IMG/VR virus record: IMGVR_UViG_3300032462_000022
Span: 1 to 42,332 of that record
Source: a virus
Direction: 5' to 3' (one strand)
Length of the DNA: 42,332 nt
Both the position numbers and the translations under genes were made by a program. Below, in pieces: positions 2 to 24,876 of the stretch. Numbering within the stretch: the first letter of the stretch is position 1; the number at the start of each line of letters is the position of its first letter. The notes below the pieces were generated by a model. It was given only the letters and a program-made list of their open reading frames with translations. It searched no databases and had not been told where the DNA came from.

Positions 2-2200
2 GAAGGTAACGCTTTCCTAGGTGCTCGAATTAAAGCGATAGAGGAAGAGAACGATGAGTTTGAATTTAATGGTAAAACGTATAAGGTAACTTATAAAACA
101 AAGAAAGTAACCGAAGGTAATGCCTTCGGAGATGCTGTAAGAAAAGCAAAAGAAGCTGGAGACAAAGAATTTGAATTTGAAGGTAAAACTTTCAAAGTTG
201 AAGAAGCTTTAGTTAATGAAGGTGGAACTGCCATTTATTCTAGAGTAGGACCACATATAGGCGAATTGCGTCAAGAACTACGAGATCTTATACAATCAGC
301 CGAAGATGATAAATGGATTAAAGCCTTACAGTCTATCGAAAATGAATTAGATAAATTTGATAAATTTATAGATAAATTTGATTCTAAATTAGGAATTATT
401 AATACTAACGAATCTGAAATTTCAGAAGCTTTTTCAACTTCTCAAAAACTAGTTGTAAATTTTGTAAATAGGTTAGAAAAGGAATTTGGTCTTCCAAAGG
501 ATGAAATTGTAAGTTTCATTATAGATACTTTAAGGGTAATGGGATTTAATGTCAATGAAGGTAATGCCTTCGGAGATGCTGTAAGAAAAGCAAAAGAAGC
601 TGGAGACAAAGAATTTGAATTTGAAGGTAAAACTTTCAAAGTTGAAGAAGCTTTAGTTAATGAAGGTCGTGGAACATCGGCACTTGAAAAATATGTTAAA
701 TCTAAATATAAGGATCAACGTGTTAATTCAGTTACCTTTGAAGAATTATTAGAACCTATTGCTATACACATAGACGCATATACAGGAGCAACTATGGGTG
801 ATTTAGAATATAATTCTAATGTAATAAATGACTTTAAAAAATTAACTGATTCAATGGCTCAAGCACATATTGATGGATCTGATTTAGACGAATCTAAAGT
901 TAACGAAGCTAAAAACTTCCAAAGCAGTGAAAATTGGGATGATTTCTTAGAGGAAATCGACAGAATGCCAGAAAATAGAATCAGAAGAATCATGGGTAAA
1001 GATTACATTGATACACCTGGAGGTTATGCAGATGAGAAAGATGATTATGATACAATTGAAGATTATATGATTTCTAATATGGGTTCTAAAGAATACGGAA
1101 ACCTCGAAGACTGGTGGATAAAAAATGTACGAGAATCCGTAACTAACGAAAGCGATTCTAGAAGTCTAAATAAAATCGAAGCAGACCTCAACATGTTAAT
1201 GAAAGGACCTGATAATGAGTCAACTGACGCTAGTATTAATAGCTTAGAAAAAATTTACAGAAAAAAGGGAGGAAAGAAATCATTAGCTGAAATAGAAAAA
1301 TTAGACGAATCTAAAGTCAATGAAGGTGCAGGTGTTGATGAGGCAAGCGCTTTTATGGCAAAAGACGTAATAAAAACCGTTGATTTTCTAAATAGAGAAA
1401 CTGGTGGTAAGCCTGGATATTTATTTTTTGGTGAAGATACGGATATTGCACAATTTGACAAATTATGGGCAAGCCGTAAATATCAAAATGCATTAGACAT
1501 GCTTGCTCAAGATAGAGAAATTGAAGCACAGAGTTTTGATGATGTTAAGATCTTTGTAAAGGAATCTGCAAGTGTTTATGAAAAAACAAAATTAAACCAT
1601 GAATTAGAACATTATCTATCGAGCAAATTTATTGATGAAAGTGCATTATCTGACATTGACCTGTTAGCAAAAGATTCTAAAGATTTTAAAGATTTTGTAA
1701 AAAACTTTAAGCGAGATTATAAAAACCTAAATACGGGAAATACCAAAGAATTGGAAGCTTGGTTAAAAACTATATATGATGTTGCAATCGAAGAATCATT
1801 GGTTAATGAAGCCAATATATTTATTTCTAATCTTACAGACATAGACCACACTAGAATTTTAAAATGGATGTCAAGCCAATTTTATCAAGATCAAGTTAAT
1901 GTCAAAAAGAAAGGATCATCTGGGAATTCCTCTCTTAATAATTACATAATAAATACTGATAAACTTTCTAAGCCAGAAATAGAAGACCTTAAATCTTATC
2001 TAAAGTCTGCGAATCATATTAACGAAGCCGAAATTAAATCTGATGACGAATTCAAAGAATACGCATTTTCAGTCTTGAAAAAAGCATTCGCTTCTGATTT
2101 CGATGAAGAAAAAGCACAAGAAGTAGTTGATGGTATCTTAAAGAAATCTGATGGAGACTATGGTGCTGCTATAGGTATTCTTACAAGTTCATTAGGATAA
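2..2200 (+). CDS. Internal-head polyprotein-like protein with repeated VNE cleavage sites (5' partial)
   Basis: The reading frame is open from base 2, so the true start lies upstream; a TTG at 266 is only an internal codon. Visible are 732 residues, hydrophilic and acidic. Sites of the form (V/I)(N/T)E followed by G or A recur, with the Glu codon ending at 220, 559, 664, 907, 1324, 1810 and 2026. Several sit in a repeated context (DESKVNE, EALVNE). This matches the T4 gp21 prohead-protease rule (hydrophobic-x-Glu). A module of about 37 residues containing GKTFKVEEALVNE occurs twice identically, and a diverged copy (GKTYKV) lies at the window edge. I infer a capsid-internal precursor cut into many peptides. 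No enzymatic domain was recognised. Confidence 0.75.
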   Translation, partial: EGNAFLGARIKAIEEENDEFEFNGKTYKVTYKTKKVTEGNAFGDAVRKAKEAGDKEFEFEGKTFKVEEALVNEGGTAIYSRVGPHIGELRQELRDLIQSAEDDKWIKALQSIENELDKFDKFIDKFDSKLGIINTNESEISEAFSTSQKLVVNFVNRLEKEFGLPKDEIVSFIIDTLRVMGFNVNEGNAFGDAVRKAKEAGDKEFEFEGKTFKVEEALVNEGRGTSALEKYVKSKYKDQRVNSVTFEELLEPIAIHIDAYTGATMGDLEYNSNVINDFKKLTDSMAQAHIDGSDLDESKVNEAKNFQSSENWDDFLEEIDRMPENRIRRIMGKDYIDTPGGYADEKDDYDTIEDYMISNMGSKEYGNLEDWWIKNVRESVTNESDSRSLNKIEADLNMLMKGPDNESTDASINSLEKIYRKKGGKKSLAEIEKLDESKVNEGAGVDEASAFMAKDVIKTVDFLNRETGGKPGYLFFGEDTDIAQFDKLWASRKYQNALDMLAQDREIEAQSFDDVKIFVKESASVYEKTKLNHELEHYLSSKFIDESALSDIDLLAKDSKDFKDFVKNFKRDYKNLNTGNTKELEAWLKTIYDVAIEESLVNEANIFISNLTDIDHTRILKWMSSQFYQDQVNVKKKGSSGNSSLNNYIINTDKLSKPEIEDLKSYLKSANHINEAEIKSDDEFKEYAFSVLKKAFASDFDEEKAQEVVDGILKKSDGDYGAAIGILTSSLG
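113..223 (+). repeat. 111-bp direct repeat, copy 1
   Basis: This copy is identical by eye to 557-667 and in the same reading frame. It encodes a module running from EGNAFGDAV to EALVNEG. A diverged relative, starting EGNAFLGAR, occupies positions 2-115. Identity at the DNA level points to recent duplication or gene conversion. Confidence 0.95.
557..667 (+). repeat. 111-bp direct repeat, copy 2
   Basis: This is the second identical copy of 113-223 inside the same coding sequence. It begins and ends at candidate VNE protease sites, so each copy would be released as one peptide. Confidence 0.95.
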
Positions 2201-2570: not shown

Positions 2571-3860
2571 ATGAAAACAAAAATCCTTAATTTCAATCAA
2601 TTTCTAACTGAAAAATATGAAGTTAGACTTAATGAATCCCTTTTGTTAGAAGGCGGCGCGGCCGGACATATGCTGCATCCTTTTGATAATAACAATTTAA
2701 CATTTGCAGACTTTAAGGCTATGATTATTGGAGGACTTCAAGGCGAATTAAACTTCGAAGAAGAACCCACCGAAAAAACTGATGGAGCTAATGTTTTTGC
2801 GACAATACAGAATGGTGAAGTTAAATTTGCAAGAAATAAAACTGAACTAAAGGACCCAATGAGCCTTTCACAATTTCAAAGTAAATTCGAAGGACATCCC
2901 AGTAAATTAGTACAAGACACATTTCAATTCGCCGCTGCCGATCTATCATCATTATTAATTAAACTACCTGCTAAAACCCAAGAGGAATTGTTCCAGAATG
3001 GTCTGAACTTCATGAACATGGAGTTAATATATTCTCAAAATCCTAATGTAATTCACTATGATGTTGATGTAATTCAATTTCACGGCATTAAGAAGACTGA
3101 TGGCTCTGGCAATATTATAGGAGATGATAATAGCGCAGCTAAAAGTGTTTCAGGAGTTCTTAAAAGTTTAAATGCTAATGTTGGTAAAGTATTTACCATA
3201 ATTCCTCCACAAGTTATTCAATTACGAAAAGATGTTGATTTCGAAGCAAATCAGTCTAAATTTATAGGAAAACTAGAAGTTCTTAAGAACAGATATAAAT
3301 TAACAGATGCTGATTCCGTTGGAAAATACCATGAAATGTGGTGGAGAGAACAAATTGAAACTCTATTTGGAGAATTTCCTCAAGATATTAAAGAAGGTCT
3401 ATTACTTAGATGGGCATATGACGACAAGAAAACTTTAAATATAAGGTCACTTGATAAAACATTGACAAAGGAACAGGCAGGCGTAGTTAGTAGATTTGAC
3501 AAGGAAGATGTTAAAAAGAAATTTAAAGAGAACATTAGACCCTTTGAGGATTTATTTTTAGAATTAGGAAGCGTTATATTAAAAAATGCAAGTAATTTTA
3601 TTGCAGTTTCTCCCGATAAAGAAATGCAACGGCTACATGTTGAAATTAGAAAAGCAGCAGACAATATTAAAATAAACGGAGACCTTTCACAGATAGCAAA
3701 AGTTACAAGTGAACTTGAAAGAATTGAAAGAATTGGAGGTATTGAATCAATAATTCCAACAGAAGGTATCGTATTTTCATATAAAGGTCACATGTATAAG
3801 CTTACTGGAATTTTCGCTGCCGCAAATGCGTTAATGGGCATAATGCGATATGGAAGATAA
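2571..3860 (+). CDS. CTS-bearing nucleotidyltransferase (DNA/RNA ligase fold)
   Basis: The start at 2571 gives MKTKILNFNQFLTE, a CTS-like leader; GTG 2553 and ATG 2559 are possible in-frame alternatives. With 429 residues, the protein shows covalent nucleotidyltransferase motifs: motif I EKTDGAN near residues 68-74 with the predicted adenylated Lys69, a motif III-like NMELI near 149-153, motif IV EGIVFSY near 398-404, and motif V YKLTG with Lys410. A GGAAGHM signature near residues 28-34 precedes the catalytic domain. The family seals or adenylates nucleic-acid ends. The leader suggests packaging in the head and delivery with DNA. The substrate (RNA, DNA or other) cannot be read from the sequence. 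Confidence 0.75.
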   Translation: MKTKILNFNQFLTEKYEVRLNESLLLEGGAAGHMLHPFDNNNLTFADFKAMIIGGLQGELNFEEEPTEKTDGANVFATIQNGEVKFARNKTELKDPMSLSQFQSKFEGHPSKLVQDTFQFAAADLSSLLIKLPAKTQEELFQNGLNFMNMELIYSQNPNVIHYDVDVIQFHGIKKTDGSGNIIGDDNSAAKSVSGVLKSLNANVGKVFTIIPPQVIQLRKDVDFEANQSKFIGKLEVLKNRYKLTDADSVGKYHEMWWREQIETLFGEFPQDIKEGLLLRWAYDDKKTLNIRSLDKTLTKEQAGVVSRFDKEDVKKKFKENIRPFEDLFLELGSVILKNASNFIAVSPDKEMQRLHVEIRKAADNIKINGDLSQIAKVTSELERIERIGGIESIIPTEGIVFSYKGHMYKLTGIFAAANALMGIMRYGR

Positions 3861-3876
3861 AAAAACAAACAAAACA

Positions 3877-4143
3877 ATGAAACATATTAAATTATTCGAA
3901 GAATTCGTAAATGAATCTTATAAGATAAACGATTTTCCAGAAGGATCTTTGATTACATTTAAAGATAAAGAAGTTTGGAGAGTTGTTAAAGCATGAATGA
4001 GAAGATCAAATGATAGAGTAGGATCTGATGAGATAACAATTAAGCCATATAATGACTTAGCTAAGGATAAAAATGTTAGCATGGTTATAGATGTTAATTT
4101 AGATTTTTTAAATGCTAACGTTAAAAAAATAGAACAATTATGA
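3877..4143 (+). pseudogene. CTS internal-protein gene interrupted by in-frame TGA
   Basis: The frame starts MKHIKLFEEFVNES and runs to codon 39, where TGA (3994-3996) is followed at once by ATG, and the same frame continues to 4143. Both halves match residues of about 28-85 of the protein encoded at 6432 (ITFKDKEVWRVVK here against LNFKDGETWKVTK there), so the break is inside one domain. It may be a nonsense mutation, a readthrough or TGA-ATG restart arrangement, or a sequencing error. The final TGA overlaps the next start (ATGA). TGA also ends the HNH gene at 16714, so it is not generally recoded. Confidence 0.7.
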
Positions 4144-6431: not shown

Positions 6432-8195
6432 ATGAACTTTATACAATTTATAAATGAATCGAAACTTTCAATAGAGGTTTCCGAAGGTACCGACTTGAAT
6501 TTTACTTTAAAACCTGGAGTAATTTTAAACTTTAAAGACGGAGAAACGTGGAAAGTTACGAAGGTGATTGGAAACGCAAATAATCCAAGAGGAGTCATGG
6601 CTAATCCATACGGAGATACTAAAAAACAATACGTTTCAGTTGCAATTGAATTTACAATAGACCAATTGAAATCAGATCTACAGATTTCTGAATCTAATAC
6701 CAATTCTGATGAATATGAGGAAACTCATGAATCTAAAGTTTCTGAAAGCAAAATAACTTTAAAAAGACAATACACAAATAACCATCCAGAAATTACAGTA
6801 GGTAAGGACGCTAGAGTTAGAAATAAAGTTATAGAGGCTATTAAAGATGGTAAAATATCACAAGACGAATTTGACAGTGTCATAAGAGAAATGTCAACAG
6901 ATGCTAAAAGATGGATGAGAAGAAACTCTCAGTTCTTTAATGTGTCAGAAGATGGAATCTCTCTATCAAAGATAGGCAATAGGATATTAAAAAGTATCAT
7001 GATTTCTGAAGCAAATAAGCAACCACAAATATGGGTTCCTGCTGGCTTCGAAAAGGAGATTTCAAAATATACAACCTCGCAAATTACAAGAGATATTGTG
7101 CTTAAAGCCGCTAAAAAATGGAACGTAGATTCCGAAGATGCAATACAATATTATGAATATGCGTGGGGAGTAAACTTAACAGAAAATAAAAATACAAAAA
7201 CAATAAAAACAAAATTTATATTTGAAAGCTTTAAAGAATTCACAGAATCTTTAAACGAAGCATTTGGATCAGCTATATTAGCAGCTGTTTTAACAGGCAA
7301 AGGTACTAAAACCGACAAAGACTTAACTAAAGCATTTTATGGTAAAACTAAATTAGCGTTAGACAAAATACAAGATGAAGATATCATTGTTACTGATCCA
7401 ATGACAGCGTATAAAGAGAAATCCGAAAATACTATTGTGTTCTATGTTTCAGATAATGAAAAGCCAAACCCATACGCGCCTTCTGATGCATTTCACTCCA
7501 ATAAAACTATACCAGGTGGAGCTTATTTATTAGCACTTACAACAGGTGATAATAGTTTTTATGAAAACTCATGGAAAAAAGGCCTGATAACAACTGGAGA
7601 TACTGGAGCAGACTCAGTAGGTATTAGTAAAAGATACAAAGGATGGGATGCAACCGGACTTTATAATGTTAAAAGAATTGCAGAAGTTGCTGATAGAGCA
7701 ATCATAATTAATTTATCATTATTACAACAAAAGTATTCAACTGCAAACCTAAAAGCTGAAAGATCAGCTGCACAAGCAGGAGCAACTGCATTTCAATCTG
7801 ATAAAGATTTTAAATCGGAGAACCTAGCAAGATACCATACTATTTTAGCTACAAACGCAGTATCATTGCCATTAGACAAAATGGTTGCAGATGCAATTGA
7901 TGCATTAGCAGCACAAATTAAATCAGGATTAGCTTCTGGTGAGAAAACTAAATATGGCGAGCCAATGATTGGTACATCATCAAAGGGTAAAGAAGTTAAA
8001 TTAAAAGATGCTTCTCAACACATGAACAACATATTAGATGATTATTCTAGATATGCTGATTACACTAAACAAGAAGCTGACGAAATTGCTACATATGGTA
8101 AAGCATCTAACTGGTATAGTGTATCTGCTAAAGATTATGCAAAAAGATGTGTAGATAATATCAAAAAGATTGAAGGTCTAACCTACGCTTGGTAA
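6432..8195 (+). CDS. Composite internal head protein with an embedded second CTS
   Basis: A 587-residue protein starting MNFIQFINES, a short targeting leader. Residues of about 28-85 are the same domain as the broken gene at 3877. Further gp21-like sites follow, such as ISEA near 192-195. At roughly residues 258-275 a second leader-like stretch, FKEFTESLNEA, is embedded, followed by about 310 residues rich in Ala, Lys and Asp with no family that I recognise. This looks like two internal-protein genes fused into one polyprotein that the prohead protease could separate. Confidence 0.75.
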   Translation: MNFIQFINESKLSIEVSEGTDLNFTLKPGVILNFKDGETWKVTKVIGNANNPRGVMANPYGDTKKQYVSVAIEFTIDQLKSDLQISESNTNSDEYEETHESKVSESKITLKRQYTNNHPEITVGKDARVRNKVIEAIKDGKISQDEFDSVIREMSTDAKRWMRRNSQFFNVSEDGISLSKIGNRILKSIMISEANKQPQIWVPAGFEKEISKYTTSQITRDIVLKAAKKWNVDSEDAIQYYEYAWGVNLTENKNTKTIKTKFIFESFKEFTESLNEAFGSAILAAVLTGKGTKTDKDLTKAFYGKTKLALDKIQDEDIIVTDPMTAYKEKSENTIVFYVSDNEKPNPYAPSDAFHSNKTIPGGAYLLALTTGDNSFYENSWKKGLITTGDTGADSVGISKRYKGWDATGLYNVKRIAEVADRAIIINLSLLQQKYSTANLKAERSAAQAGATAFQSDKDFKSENLARYHTILATNAVSLPLDKMVADAIDALAAQIKSGLASGEKTKYGEPMIGTSSKGKEVKLKDASQHMNNILDDYSRYADYTKQEADEIATYGKASNWYSVSAKDYAKRCVDNIKKIEGLTYAW

Positions 8196-19251: not shown

Positions 19252-19285
19252 ATGAAATACATTAAATTATGAAATACATTAAATT
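19252..19285 (+). repeat. Tandem duplication of a CTS gene start
   Basis: ATGAAATACATTAAATT occurs twice in a row (19252-19268 and 19269-19285). A third, truncated start at 19221 encodes only MKYKSDYAN and a stop. The second tandem copy starts the real gene. These look like scars of recombination or slippage at the conserved leader. Confidence 0.8.
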
Positions 19286-20252
19286 ATTTGAACAATTCGT
19301 AAATGAATCAGAGTGGAAGGATAAATCAACTGATGCTTTAAAAACATCTAATGTTTTTTTAGTAAAAACAGTTAATAAGCTTTTTAATGGATTGCAAAAA
19401 TCAGGAAAAGAACAAAGACAAAGCGATTTAAAAGAAGACCAATATGTAGATAATCAAATGACAGAATTAACTGCCATTATACAGAAGGCAATGGGATCTA
19501 AATTTAGCGTAGAAAATAAACCTACGAATTCAGATCTAAGGTCTTCAAATGATGCAATTGTAGTAAGTATCGCAGGGTTCGAGGCATTTGTTTTTAGTTA
19601 TCAATCATATCAAACAACTGGATGGATGACCGTTTATAATCCACCTAGGCCAGGTGATTCGTTTGCTGCTACTCCAACATATATTATAACAGAAGGCAAT
19701 TGGGAAGCAATTAAAAAAATATTTAGCACTTCTAATTTAACAGGCATGATTGCTAAACATGGCAATTTAATCGTCAATTATAATAATGATGCAGAGTTAC
19801 GAGCAACCGCAGTAATTGACGCTAAAAATATTAAAACTAAAGAAGCTTTAGTTCTGCTTCAAACATTAGGTGTAGATACTAACACTTTATTAAATCCACT
19901 AAAAATAAATAATTTTTCAGATGACAAAAATGGTAGTAATATATTAGATCGTAAATTTTATTCAAAATTAAATTTGACAATGTTACTTGATTTAGCGTAT
20001 GACATTAAGAGTATGTCAGGTATTATTAATCAACAGACAATAGATTCAATAAGAACCTCGAATGGTGCAAGCATCAGGGCAACCGCAAATGGATATGTTT
20101 TACGTAGCCGGGAATATACATATCGTTTTGAATATAATAAGGAGTATGGATACTGGGAAGGTGGATATGAAAATCAAAAATATCCTGAATCTAGTAGTGT
20201 TCCAATGAATGCCTTTGAATTTTTAGTGTTAGTGGGACAAGCCATTAAATAA
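19269..20252 (+). CDS. CTS-bearing internal head protein
   Basis: A 327-residue protein starting MKYIKLFEQFVNES, with the predicted cut after FVNE. The body is mixed alpha/beta. A C-terminal region with YVLRSREYTYRFEYN looks like antiparallel strands. No known family. Its last codons and following bases (AAATAAACCCTCTCC) are duplicated at 22293, next to the remnant of another CTS gene, showing that this 3' end took part in a tandem duplication. Confidence 0.75.
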   Translation: MKYIKLFEQFVNESEWKDKSTDALKTSNVFLVKTVNKLFNGLQKSGKEQRQSDLKEDQYVDNQMTELTAIIQKAMGSKFSVENKPTNSDLRSSNDAIVVSIAGFEAFVFSYQSYQTTGWMTVYNPPRPGDSFAATPTYIITEGNWEAIKKIFSTSNLTGMIAKHGNLIVNYNNDAELRATAVIDAKNIKTKEALVLLQTLGVDTNTLLNPLKINNFSDDKNGSNILDRKFYSKLNLTMLLDLAYDIKSMSGIINQQTIDSIRTSNGASIRATANGYVLRSREYTYRFEYNKEYGYWEGGYENQKYPESSSVPMNAFEFLVLVGQAIK

Positions 20253-23196: not shown

Positions 23197-24876
23197 ATGA
23201 CAATAAATGAATTAATAGTCAAGCCAGAGGATGAGCTAACTCAAATTGAGATAAAAACATTGGTTAAACATTATACTGAAGCATCTGCTCAATATACTGC
23301 AAATGAGCAAGCAGTTAAAGTAATGCTTAACTCTATATATGGTGCCTTTGGAAATAAATACTTTCACTTTTTTAATATAGACATTGCAGAATCAATCACA
23401 ATGCAGGGTCAATCTGCAATTCTATATTCAGAAAAAATACTTAATAGGTATTTTCATGAATTTTGGCAAAAAGACAAAGCAGTGCACGAGCGCTTCAATA
23501 TATCAGTTAAGAACAAATTAGTAAGACCCTCAGTTGTCTATATTGACACGGACAGCGTTGCTGGAGATACTAAAATAAGGTTAGACGATGGCAGAATTAT
23601 TACAATAGAACAATTGTATAATGAAGGTGTTGAATCAATGGGAAGTACTGCAAGTGGACATGATTCTGTTTCTATTAAAAATGATGTATTAAATTGGTCA
23701 GAGGGTAATGATTTATATTATGCTAAAGTTAAGCGTGTAATTAGGCATAAAGTAAATAAATCTAAGTGGAAATTAAAAACAAAAAGTGGTAAAGAAATTA
23801 TTGTAACAAATGACCACTCTATGATTGTTTTTAGGGATGGACAAAAGATAGAAGTTAAACCATCTGAAATATTGAAAACCGATAAAGTACTTACGATACA
23901 TGAATACGTTACATATGAAATAGAAGAAATCGATAGCATCGAAAATATCGGTGAATTTAATGACGAGCATGTGTATGATATAGAAGTAGATGATTATACA
24001 CATACATTTATTGGTAATGATATATTAGTTCATAATTCAGCATATGTTCAATTTGAGGAAATGTATGAATCTATTAATTGGTTAAGTGAACCCATGCCAA
24101 TCGATAAATTCATAATGGAGATGTACATATTCAGACTTAAGGAATATATCTTTAAATGTATGGAGAAATATGCTGCAAATACCAACACTGATAATTTCCT
24201 TATGTTTGAACTAGAAACCATAGCATACTCTGGAATTTGGATGGCAAAGAAGAATTATTTACAAAACATTGCATGGGAAGATAGGCTAGGAGTTAATGAA
24301 AGGTACCCCTCGTTAAACAAAATCAAAACAGTTGGGTTTACAACAATACAAGGGTCAGCCCCCACAATAGCAAGAAAACATCTAACTGAGGCAATTAGAT
24401 TAATTCTTTCAGAAAAACCAACAGCGTCACTATTAAAAAGATTAGTAGATTATTTAAAACAATGTAAAAAGGAATTTCAATTAGCTAATATTGACGATAT
24501 ATGTTTTAATAAGAGAACCAATAATATTGGAAAATATATAATCGACGATAATGCCGAATTGCAATATGCTTTAAAATGTCCTTCAAATGTTAAGGCCGCT
24601 GGCTTTTATAACCTTTTAATGAATCAAAATCCAAAGTATAAAAACAAATATAAAATGATAGTCGACGGTGAAAAATTAAAATTATATCATTGTAAGCATC
24701 AAGCATGTGAACAATTTGCATATTATCAAGGTAATCATCCATATGAAATAGCACCACCAGTTGACTATGAACTACAATTTGAAAAGAGTGTAATTGACCC
24801 ATTGAATAGAGTTCTTTCTGCAGTTGGATTACATAATTTAAACAGAAATTTAATATATTCAACCTCATTATTTTAA
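23197..24876 (+). CDS. 43: DNA polymerase family B, C-terminal fragment with mini-intein (gp43-like)
   Basis: 559 residues. After about 40 residues comes motif B (QAVKVMLNSIYGAFGN), then motif C YIDTD-S interrupted by a 161-residue intein (residues 120-280), then the thumb. Spliced, motif C reads YIDTDSAYVQF and the fragment is 398 residues. The end NRNLIYSTSLF may bind the clamp encoded just upstream. Motif A and the exonuclease are in the separate gene at 13372, so the active polymerase needs both protein splicing and assembly of two chains. Confidence 0.93.
   Translation: MTINELIVKPEDELTQIEIKTLVKHYTEASAQYTANEQAVKVMLNSIYGAFGNKYFHFFNIDIAESITMQGQSAILYSEKILNRYFHEFWQKDKAVHERFNISVKNKLVRPSVVYIDTDSVAGDTKIRLDDGRIITIEQLYNEGVESMGSTASGHDSVSIKNDVLNWSEGNDLYYAKVKRVIRHKVNKSKWKLKTKSGKEIIVTNDHSMIVFRDGQKIEVKPSEILKTDKVLTIHEYVTYEIEEIDSIENIGEFNDEHVYDIEVDDYTHTFIGNDILVHNSAYVQFEEMYESINWLSEPMPIDKFIMEMYIFRLKEYIFKCMEKYAANTNTDNFLMFELETIAYSGIWMAKKNYLQNIAWEDRLGVNERYPSLNKIKTVGFTTIQGSAPTIARKHLTEAIRLILSEKPTASLLKRLVDYLKQCKKEFQLANIDDICFNKRTNNIGKYIIDDNAELQYALKCPSNVKAAGFYNLLMNQNPKYKNKYKMIVDGEKLKLYHCKHQACEQFAYYQGNHPYEIAPPVDYELQFEKSVIDPLNRVLSAVGLHNLNRNLIYSTSLF
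23554..24036 (+). mobile_element. Mini-intein in polymerase motif C
   Basis: 161 residues from SVAGDTKIRL to NDILVHN, followed by Ser. Splicing block A: Ser1 with GDTKI; block B: TNDHSM with the conserved Thr and His; block F/G: VYDIEVDDYTHTFIGN and the terminal His-Asn before Ser+1. No LAGLIDADG or HNH endonuclease, so it splices but cannot home by itself. The insertion point DTD/S is a site used by inteins in other family B polymerases. Confidence 0.93.

Follow-up and report, generated by a model that had tools for sequence, protein, structure and literature searches.

The window (the whole 42,332-nucleotide stretch analysed here, IMG/VR virus record IMGVR_UViG_3300032462_000022) begins inside a gene: the frame at positions 2-2200 is open over 732 codons (732 aa) and its 5′ end lies beyond the left window edge. 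A previous reading of the letters alone (hereafter the sequence-only reading) had placed the start outside the window and proposed extending the contig upstream to find the leader; the frame does run off the edge, but the start was recovered in the overlapping contig L002 (IMGVR_UViG_3300027983_000166), which is identical to the window protein over 732/732 residues and extends it by 73 residues at the N-terminus. The complete protein has 805 aa and is encoded by ORF L002:4149-6566; ORF 2-2200 covers its C-terminal 732 aa.

Eight sites of the form [VI][NT]E↓[GAS] (the arrow marks the predicted cut) occur in ORF 2-2200, seven of them [VI]NE-[GA], in agreement with the at least seven (V/I)NE-(G/A) sites claimed in the sequence-only reading, and one VTE-G. 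Shuffling of the full protein yielded 0.24 such sites on average and reached eight in 0/20,000 shuffles; with the second repeat copy left out, the remaining seven sites were again matched by no shuffle. Since the protein is acidic, a composition rich in Glu and Asn might in principle, together with the two repeats, have produced the sites by chance, but the shuffling rules out such an origin and the sites are conserved in relatives, which leaves this explanation with next to no probability. The other 41 genes of the window hold 13 such sites in 12,484 aa, of which five end leader-like motifs, one lies at the start of the capsid protein and two in the protease-scaffold protein. The exact 111-bp repeat (113-223 and 557-667) is bounded by sites, as had been noticed before, each copy starting at one site and ending at the next. 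A DNA-level repeat as the cause of the sites was ruled out by their codons, which vary from site to site (GTTAAT, GTCAAT, GTTAAC for the Val-Asn pair of VNE); the motif is thus maintained at the protein level and not as one copied DNA repeat. With weaker sites that had been overlooked (ANE↓G at the window edge, ISE↓A, VTNE↓S and FIDE↓S), the polyprotein divides as follows:

L002:4149-4367, outside the window: first 73 residues of the N-terminal domain (MGQVNKISSFKSFSEV...)
2-4, + strand: last residue (E74) of the N-terminal head domain, site ANE↓G; from the full-length ORF in L002, domain common to relatives
5-115, + strand: module A (GNAFLGARIKAIEEENDEFEFNGKTYKV...), ending VTE↓G; from the alignment, alpha-beta-beta in the model
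116-220, + strand: module B (GNAFGDAVRKAKEAGDKEFEFEGKTFKVEEALVNE↓), first copy of the exact 111-bp repeat (113-223)
221-559, + strand: cassette 1, ending FNVNE↓G, with an internal ISE↓A; from the sites
560-664, + strand: module C, second copy of the exact repeat (557-667), ending LVNE↓G
665-907, + strand: cassette 2, ending SKVNE↓A; from the sites
908-1150, + strand: cassette 3 (AKNFQSSENWDDFLEEIDRMPENRIRRIMGKDYIDTPGG...), ending SVTNE↓S; from relatives' blocks, a compact helical domain in the model
1151-1324, + strand: cassette 4, ending SKVNE↓G; from the sites, C-terminal border of low confidence in the model
1325-1639, + strand: cassette 5a (GAGVDEASAFMAKDV...), ending FIDE↓S; from blocks in leader-type polyproteins
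1640-1810, + strand: cassette 5b (SALSDIDLLAKDSKDFKDFVK...), ending SLVNE↓A; relatives in L006, L058, L096, L097 and L169
1811-2026, + strand: cassette 6, ending HINE↓A; from the sites
2027-2197, + strand: C-terminal domain (AEIKSDDEFKEYAF...LTSSLG); 102 IMG/VR relatives, pLDDT about 97

Structure models were of moderate quality (mean pLDDT 61.6 and 67.6), with the N-terminal domain, the modules, cassette 3 and the C-terminal domain predicted well. Most sites fell in or beside low-confidence stretches, near linkers between helical domains of the models, where the low confidence may also stem from shallow alignments. Between the relatives L003 and L004, dN/dS was 0.14 overall and 0.06-0.18 in most cargo blocks; the cargo blocks are thus under purifying selection. 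Family, PDB sequence and fold searches with the cargo blocks yielded only PHROG families of unknown function above noise level, and the polyprotein itself had no family match above noise in Pfam or PHROG and no similarity to a known internal protein family.

Relatives are numerous in IMG/VR, with 102 retrieved by the C-terminal domain and at least 205 by the module. In over 100 uncultured phages the two terminal domains are retained while the blocks between them are exchanged. The full proteins of L003 and L004 (788 aa), for example, agree with the window protein in the N-terminal domain, the GNAF modules and the C-terminal domain but carry other blocks in between. Among complete proteins that have the C-terminal domain, lengths run from 195 aa (the N-terminal domain with a single C-terminal domain) up to 1016 aa. 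Cutting the relatives in silico at the sites released recurrent blocks, often of 55-90 aa. Blocks 57-67% identical to cassette 3 occur in other phages and in both carrier types, and L097 holds a tandem duplicate of the whole block; cassette 5a has 71-74% identical blocks in the leader-type polyproteins of L097 and L111, and the first half of cassette 1 has relatives at block borders in L054, L108 and L111. For cassette 2, no relative as a single block was found among the relatives' blocks.

We analysed insertions and losses of blocks between pairs at least 75% identical, scoring whether the ends lay within 3 residues of a motif. Both ends were at [VIL][NTS]E in 40% of the 45 distinct block indels, compared with 1.8% under random placement; [VIL]-x-E with other middle residues was also enriched (31% vs 3.8%), and three control motifs reached 0-4%. 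A test of HSP boundaries over all pairs had given a 3-fold enrichment but was redundant and is superseded by the indel analysis. In 44 non-redundant linkers preceding the C-terminal domain, P1 was Glu in 43/44, P3 was V, I or L in 42/44 and P1′ was A or G in 43/44, while positions further upstream carried ~1 bit or less each, except for ES at -7/-6. Comparison thus shows that entire blocks come and go, are duplicated and are swapped between phages at the predicted cut sites, and that the sites between the presumed products are conserved and match the motif of the virus protease. Any linker between folded domains is a natural place for indels, and the protein could instead stay uncut, its ES-VNE stretches being only flexible linkers in which recombination is tolerated, like those of polyvalent proteins, which are multidomain injected proteins (PMC5512222). 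We consider this very unlikely: outside ES..[VIL]-x-E↓[AG], in which the Glu is kept in 43 of 44 cases, the linkers are random, the control motifs show no enrichment at indel ends, the same motif terminates capsid leaders and is interchangeable with them, and the 11 polyproteins searched contained no Pfam domain above cut-off and no effector or peptidase domain such as is typical of polyvalent proteins.

Interchangeability became apparent from a second polyprotein in the window, which we list here with two small leader proteins:

2217-2474, + strand: small protein with the leader MKHIKLFEEFLNE↓G, like T4 internal proteins by comparison with T4
6432-8195, + strand: leader-type polyprotein, MNFIQFINE↓ followed by ~95 aa of cargo and ESKVSE↓SKITLKRQYT body; 43 relatives compared
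40583-40846, + strand: leader protein MKTFNDFINE↓S; residues 1-30 match phrog_2667 (internal head proteins) weakly, E 0.0066

The relatives of 6432-8195 carry 0 to about 6 blocks between leader and body: 20/43 have the arrangement leader↓body and 23/43 leader↓cargo...↓body. A T4-like [LIVF]-x-E lies within a few residues of the body in 43/43 (background 22%), and since it is kept with or without cargo, the leader site and the internal sites are interchangeable. Moreover, 16/44 cargo segments of this type have relatives in the first family, including cassettes 3, 5a and 5b of the window. We propose that 6432-8195 works like the first polyprotein, with a classic short leader. The leader is present in most of its relatives, and the leader-family relatives in L036 (9351-11705), L046 and L075 start with a cargo block (MATVTMDAMDPK...) without a leader, which counts against reading these proteins as head polyproteins. 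In the window family, the N-terminal 20 residues (MGQVNKISSFKSFSEV) display the F..F leader pattern; because the N-terminal domain has no constant [LIV]-x-E end, the case for head targeting is weaker here than for the leader-type family. In L096 (10037-11383), a single gene contains a complete leader-cargo unit in two head-to-tail copies.

Many genes of the window open with leaders, for instance MKHIKLFEEFLNE↓G, MKYIKLFEQFVNE↓S and MKTFNDFINE↓S, resembling the T4 sites MKTYQEFIAE↓A (IPII, IPIII), TITE↓A (IPI) and FLTE↓AE (gp23). There are about ten leader-like gene starts (2217, 2571, 3877, 4140, 8217, 18467, 19269, 36115, 39975 and 40583), seemingly many compared with T4. The gene at 3877-3996 encodes only 39 aa, a leader with a very short tail, and at 19252-19287 the leader gene start is tandemly duplicated (ATGAAATACATTAAATT twice). 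In 2571-3860 the leader precedes a protein with an EKTDG (KxDG) motif, which is suggestive of a ligase-type nucleic-acid nucleotidyltransferase that may be packaged in the head.

The head genes lie together:

34508-36094, + strand: portal protein (gp20-like); phrog_213, E 3e-69
36511-38304, + strand: S77 prohead protease fused to a scaffold-like region, the presumed cutter; PF03420, E 1.2e-11, phrog_207
38412-39872, + strand: gp23-like major capsid protein with a conserved NHKLYE↓(D/E); PF07068 and relatives

They follow the T4 order 20-(67)-21/22-23, and the phage is T4-like. With T4 gp21 the protease shares 30% identity and, as expected of an S77 protease, it retains GEL(D/N)HP and SSR, whose His and Ser we take to be catalytic. 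NHKLYE↓(D/E) is present in all capsid proteins of relatives examined, at the position where T4 gp23 is cut at FLTE↓AE. An S77 protease match was found on 15/19 long contigs carrying the polyproteins; the other 4/19, which may be fragments, had none. Among named phage records, the capsid protein comes closest to those of a 462-kb uncultured phage (50% identity) and of Lak phages (37-38%). Two scans of bacterial genomes revealed no relative of the C-terminal domain or the capsid protein, and a search of the cultured phages in INPHARED matched neither the window protein nor the GNAF module nor L163. In the L009-type protein (L009:7698-10238), only the end modules are common to hypothetical proteins of cultured marine phages (Pelagibacter and Flavobacterium phages and cyanophages), and such phages may offer a laboratory model. 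Flavobacterium phage immuto was rejected as a cultured model: its leader-like starts differ (FLTENKL type), and the 49 kb examined contained no clear block polyprotein. Elsewhere in the window, a family-B DNA polymerase is seemingly split into two genes ~8 kb apart (13372-14775 and 23197-24876), the second with an intein-like insert at the DTDS motif, and 9603-11051 encodes a DUF2828 plus DUF7788 protein (phrog_850, RNA-binding protein), possibly Ro60/TROVE-like.

The position of the head genes also bears on whether the polyprotein might be a component of the prohead core or scaffold like T4 gp22 and gp67, chopped so that the pieces exit and the DNA fits, with blocks that are functionless filler. 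T4 gp22 and gp67 are each cleaved to several fragments, most of which exit the head (PMC9026906), additional sites in the propeptides of giant phages have been explained as aiding clearance (PMC5694885), and the C-terminal domain is nearly universal in a family whose protein is acidic and helical. Against such a role, a scaffold-like region already resides on the protease gene 36511-38304, the blocks are wholly different between relatives and common to two carrier families, purifying selection acts block by block, and the second family puts the same blocks ahead of a conserved body carrying a capsid leader. The comparison with gp22 and gp67 gave no sequence match, and the gene lies at 2-2200, away from the head block at 34508-39872. 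A scaffold role is therefore improbable, if less so than an uncut protein. The scaffold-like region on the protease gene is repeat-rich (YSEHIATKFDQ...) with several [VIL][NTS]E sites, and in the relatives L106, L116 and L132 a GNAF module lies inside the protease-scaffold gene.

We therefore favor, with some confidence, a modular head polyprotein by which many small internal proteins would be loaded and which the prohead protease would cut at [VIL]-x-E. The N-terminal helical domain would bring the 805-aa protein into the prohead core, where the S77 prohead protease of the phage would cleave flexible linkers behind the Glu of [VIL]-[NTS]-E↓[AGS], as the comparison suggests. About ten units of about 35-110 residues would be freed, namely the GNAF modules, the variable cargo blocks and the C-terminal domain, and might remain with the DNA inside the head and pass into the host on infection, like T4 IPI, IPII, IPIII and Alt. 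The phage thus probably packs several different small proteins per head from one gene, and block exchange at the cut sites would change the delivered set quickly while leaving gene order and leader unaltered. Counting against this reading, P3 is mostly Val in these sites and Leu or Ile in the published T4 motif, L/I-X-E (PMC9026906). The sequence-only reading had proposed a polyprotein with prohead-protease sites; that the sites are block borders, conserved before the C-terminal block and interchangeable with leader sites, now speaks strongly for it, the cutting itself being a prediction.

T4 injects a handful of internal proteins, one of which, IPI, defeats a host restriction enzyme. Whether the polyproteins form a widespread, undescribed delivery system of aquatic T4-like phages, in which magazines of small effectors are co-injected and the protease site doubles as the exchange joint, we regard as evenly poised. 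If true, one gene would deliver many IPI-like proteins at equal dose, a new delivered protein could be added by a single in-frame block exchange, the evolution of injected cargo would become directly testable, and the [VIL]-x-E↓ rule would read hundreds of unannotated phage proteins as candidate lists of counter-defence or takeover proteins. Our searches of the open-access literature turned up no description of a head polyprotein of a tailed phage whose blocks are exchangeable.

Among known systems, the T4 internal proteins IPI, IPII, IPIII and Alt share with the leader-type polyproteins an F..F-type leader ending [LI]-x-E↓A; further common features are an S77 protease, gp20 and gp23 head genes and a cargo that varies between relatives. 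They have one cargo per gene, whereas here many site-bounded blocks lie in one chain, and in the window family a longer, helical domain stands at the N-terminus. The polyvalent proteins known from phages and plasmids are likewise modular and presumed to be delivered with the DNA, and their authors likened them to polyproteins, but they rely on embedded peptidases (PMC5512222). They consist of large enzymatic domains with embedded metallopeptidases, their block borders are without prohead-protease sites, and our searches found no domain common to them and the polyprotein family. Several cuts in one head protein are known: SPN3US gp53 is cut at at least three sites (PMC10052503), and some propeptides of giant phages are cut several times. 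The head proteins of SPN3US and phiKZ (such as gp53 and gp54; cutters gp245 or gp175) resemble what is predicted for the window protein in their Glu-directed cutting by a related protease at several sites; their motif is A-x-E or S-x-E, however, and nearly all cuts strip an N-terminal propeptide from one mature protein. In T4 gp22 and gp67 (the latter annotated as precursor to internal peptides), one chain carries several prohead-protease sites, as predicted here. They are scaffold parts without sequence match to the polyprotein and their pieces mostly leave the head, whereas the polyprotein would yield distinct pieces that are under selection and can be exchanged, and the phage has its scaffold-like region fused to the protease. 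Cutting into many peptides, which the sequence-only reading had called unusual for a tailed phage, is in itself known from T4 gp22 and gp67 and from giant-phage propeptides; what stands out is a series of folded blocks that differ from one another, are under selection and can be swapped. In its parts the cassette polyprotein resembles T4 internal proteins and gp22/gp67; as an arrangement it is new.
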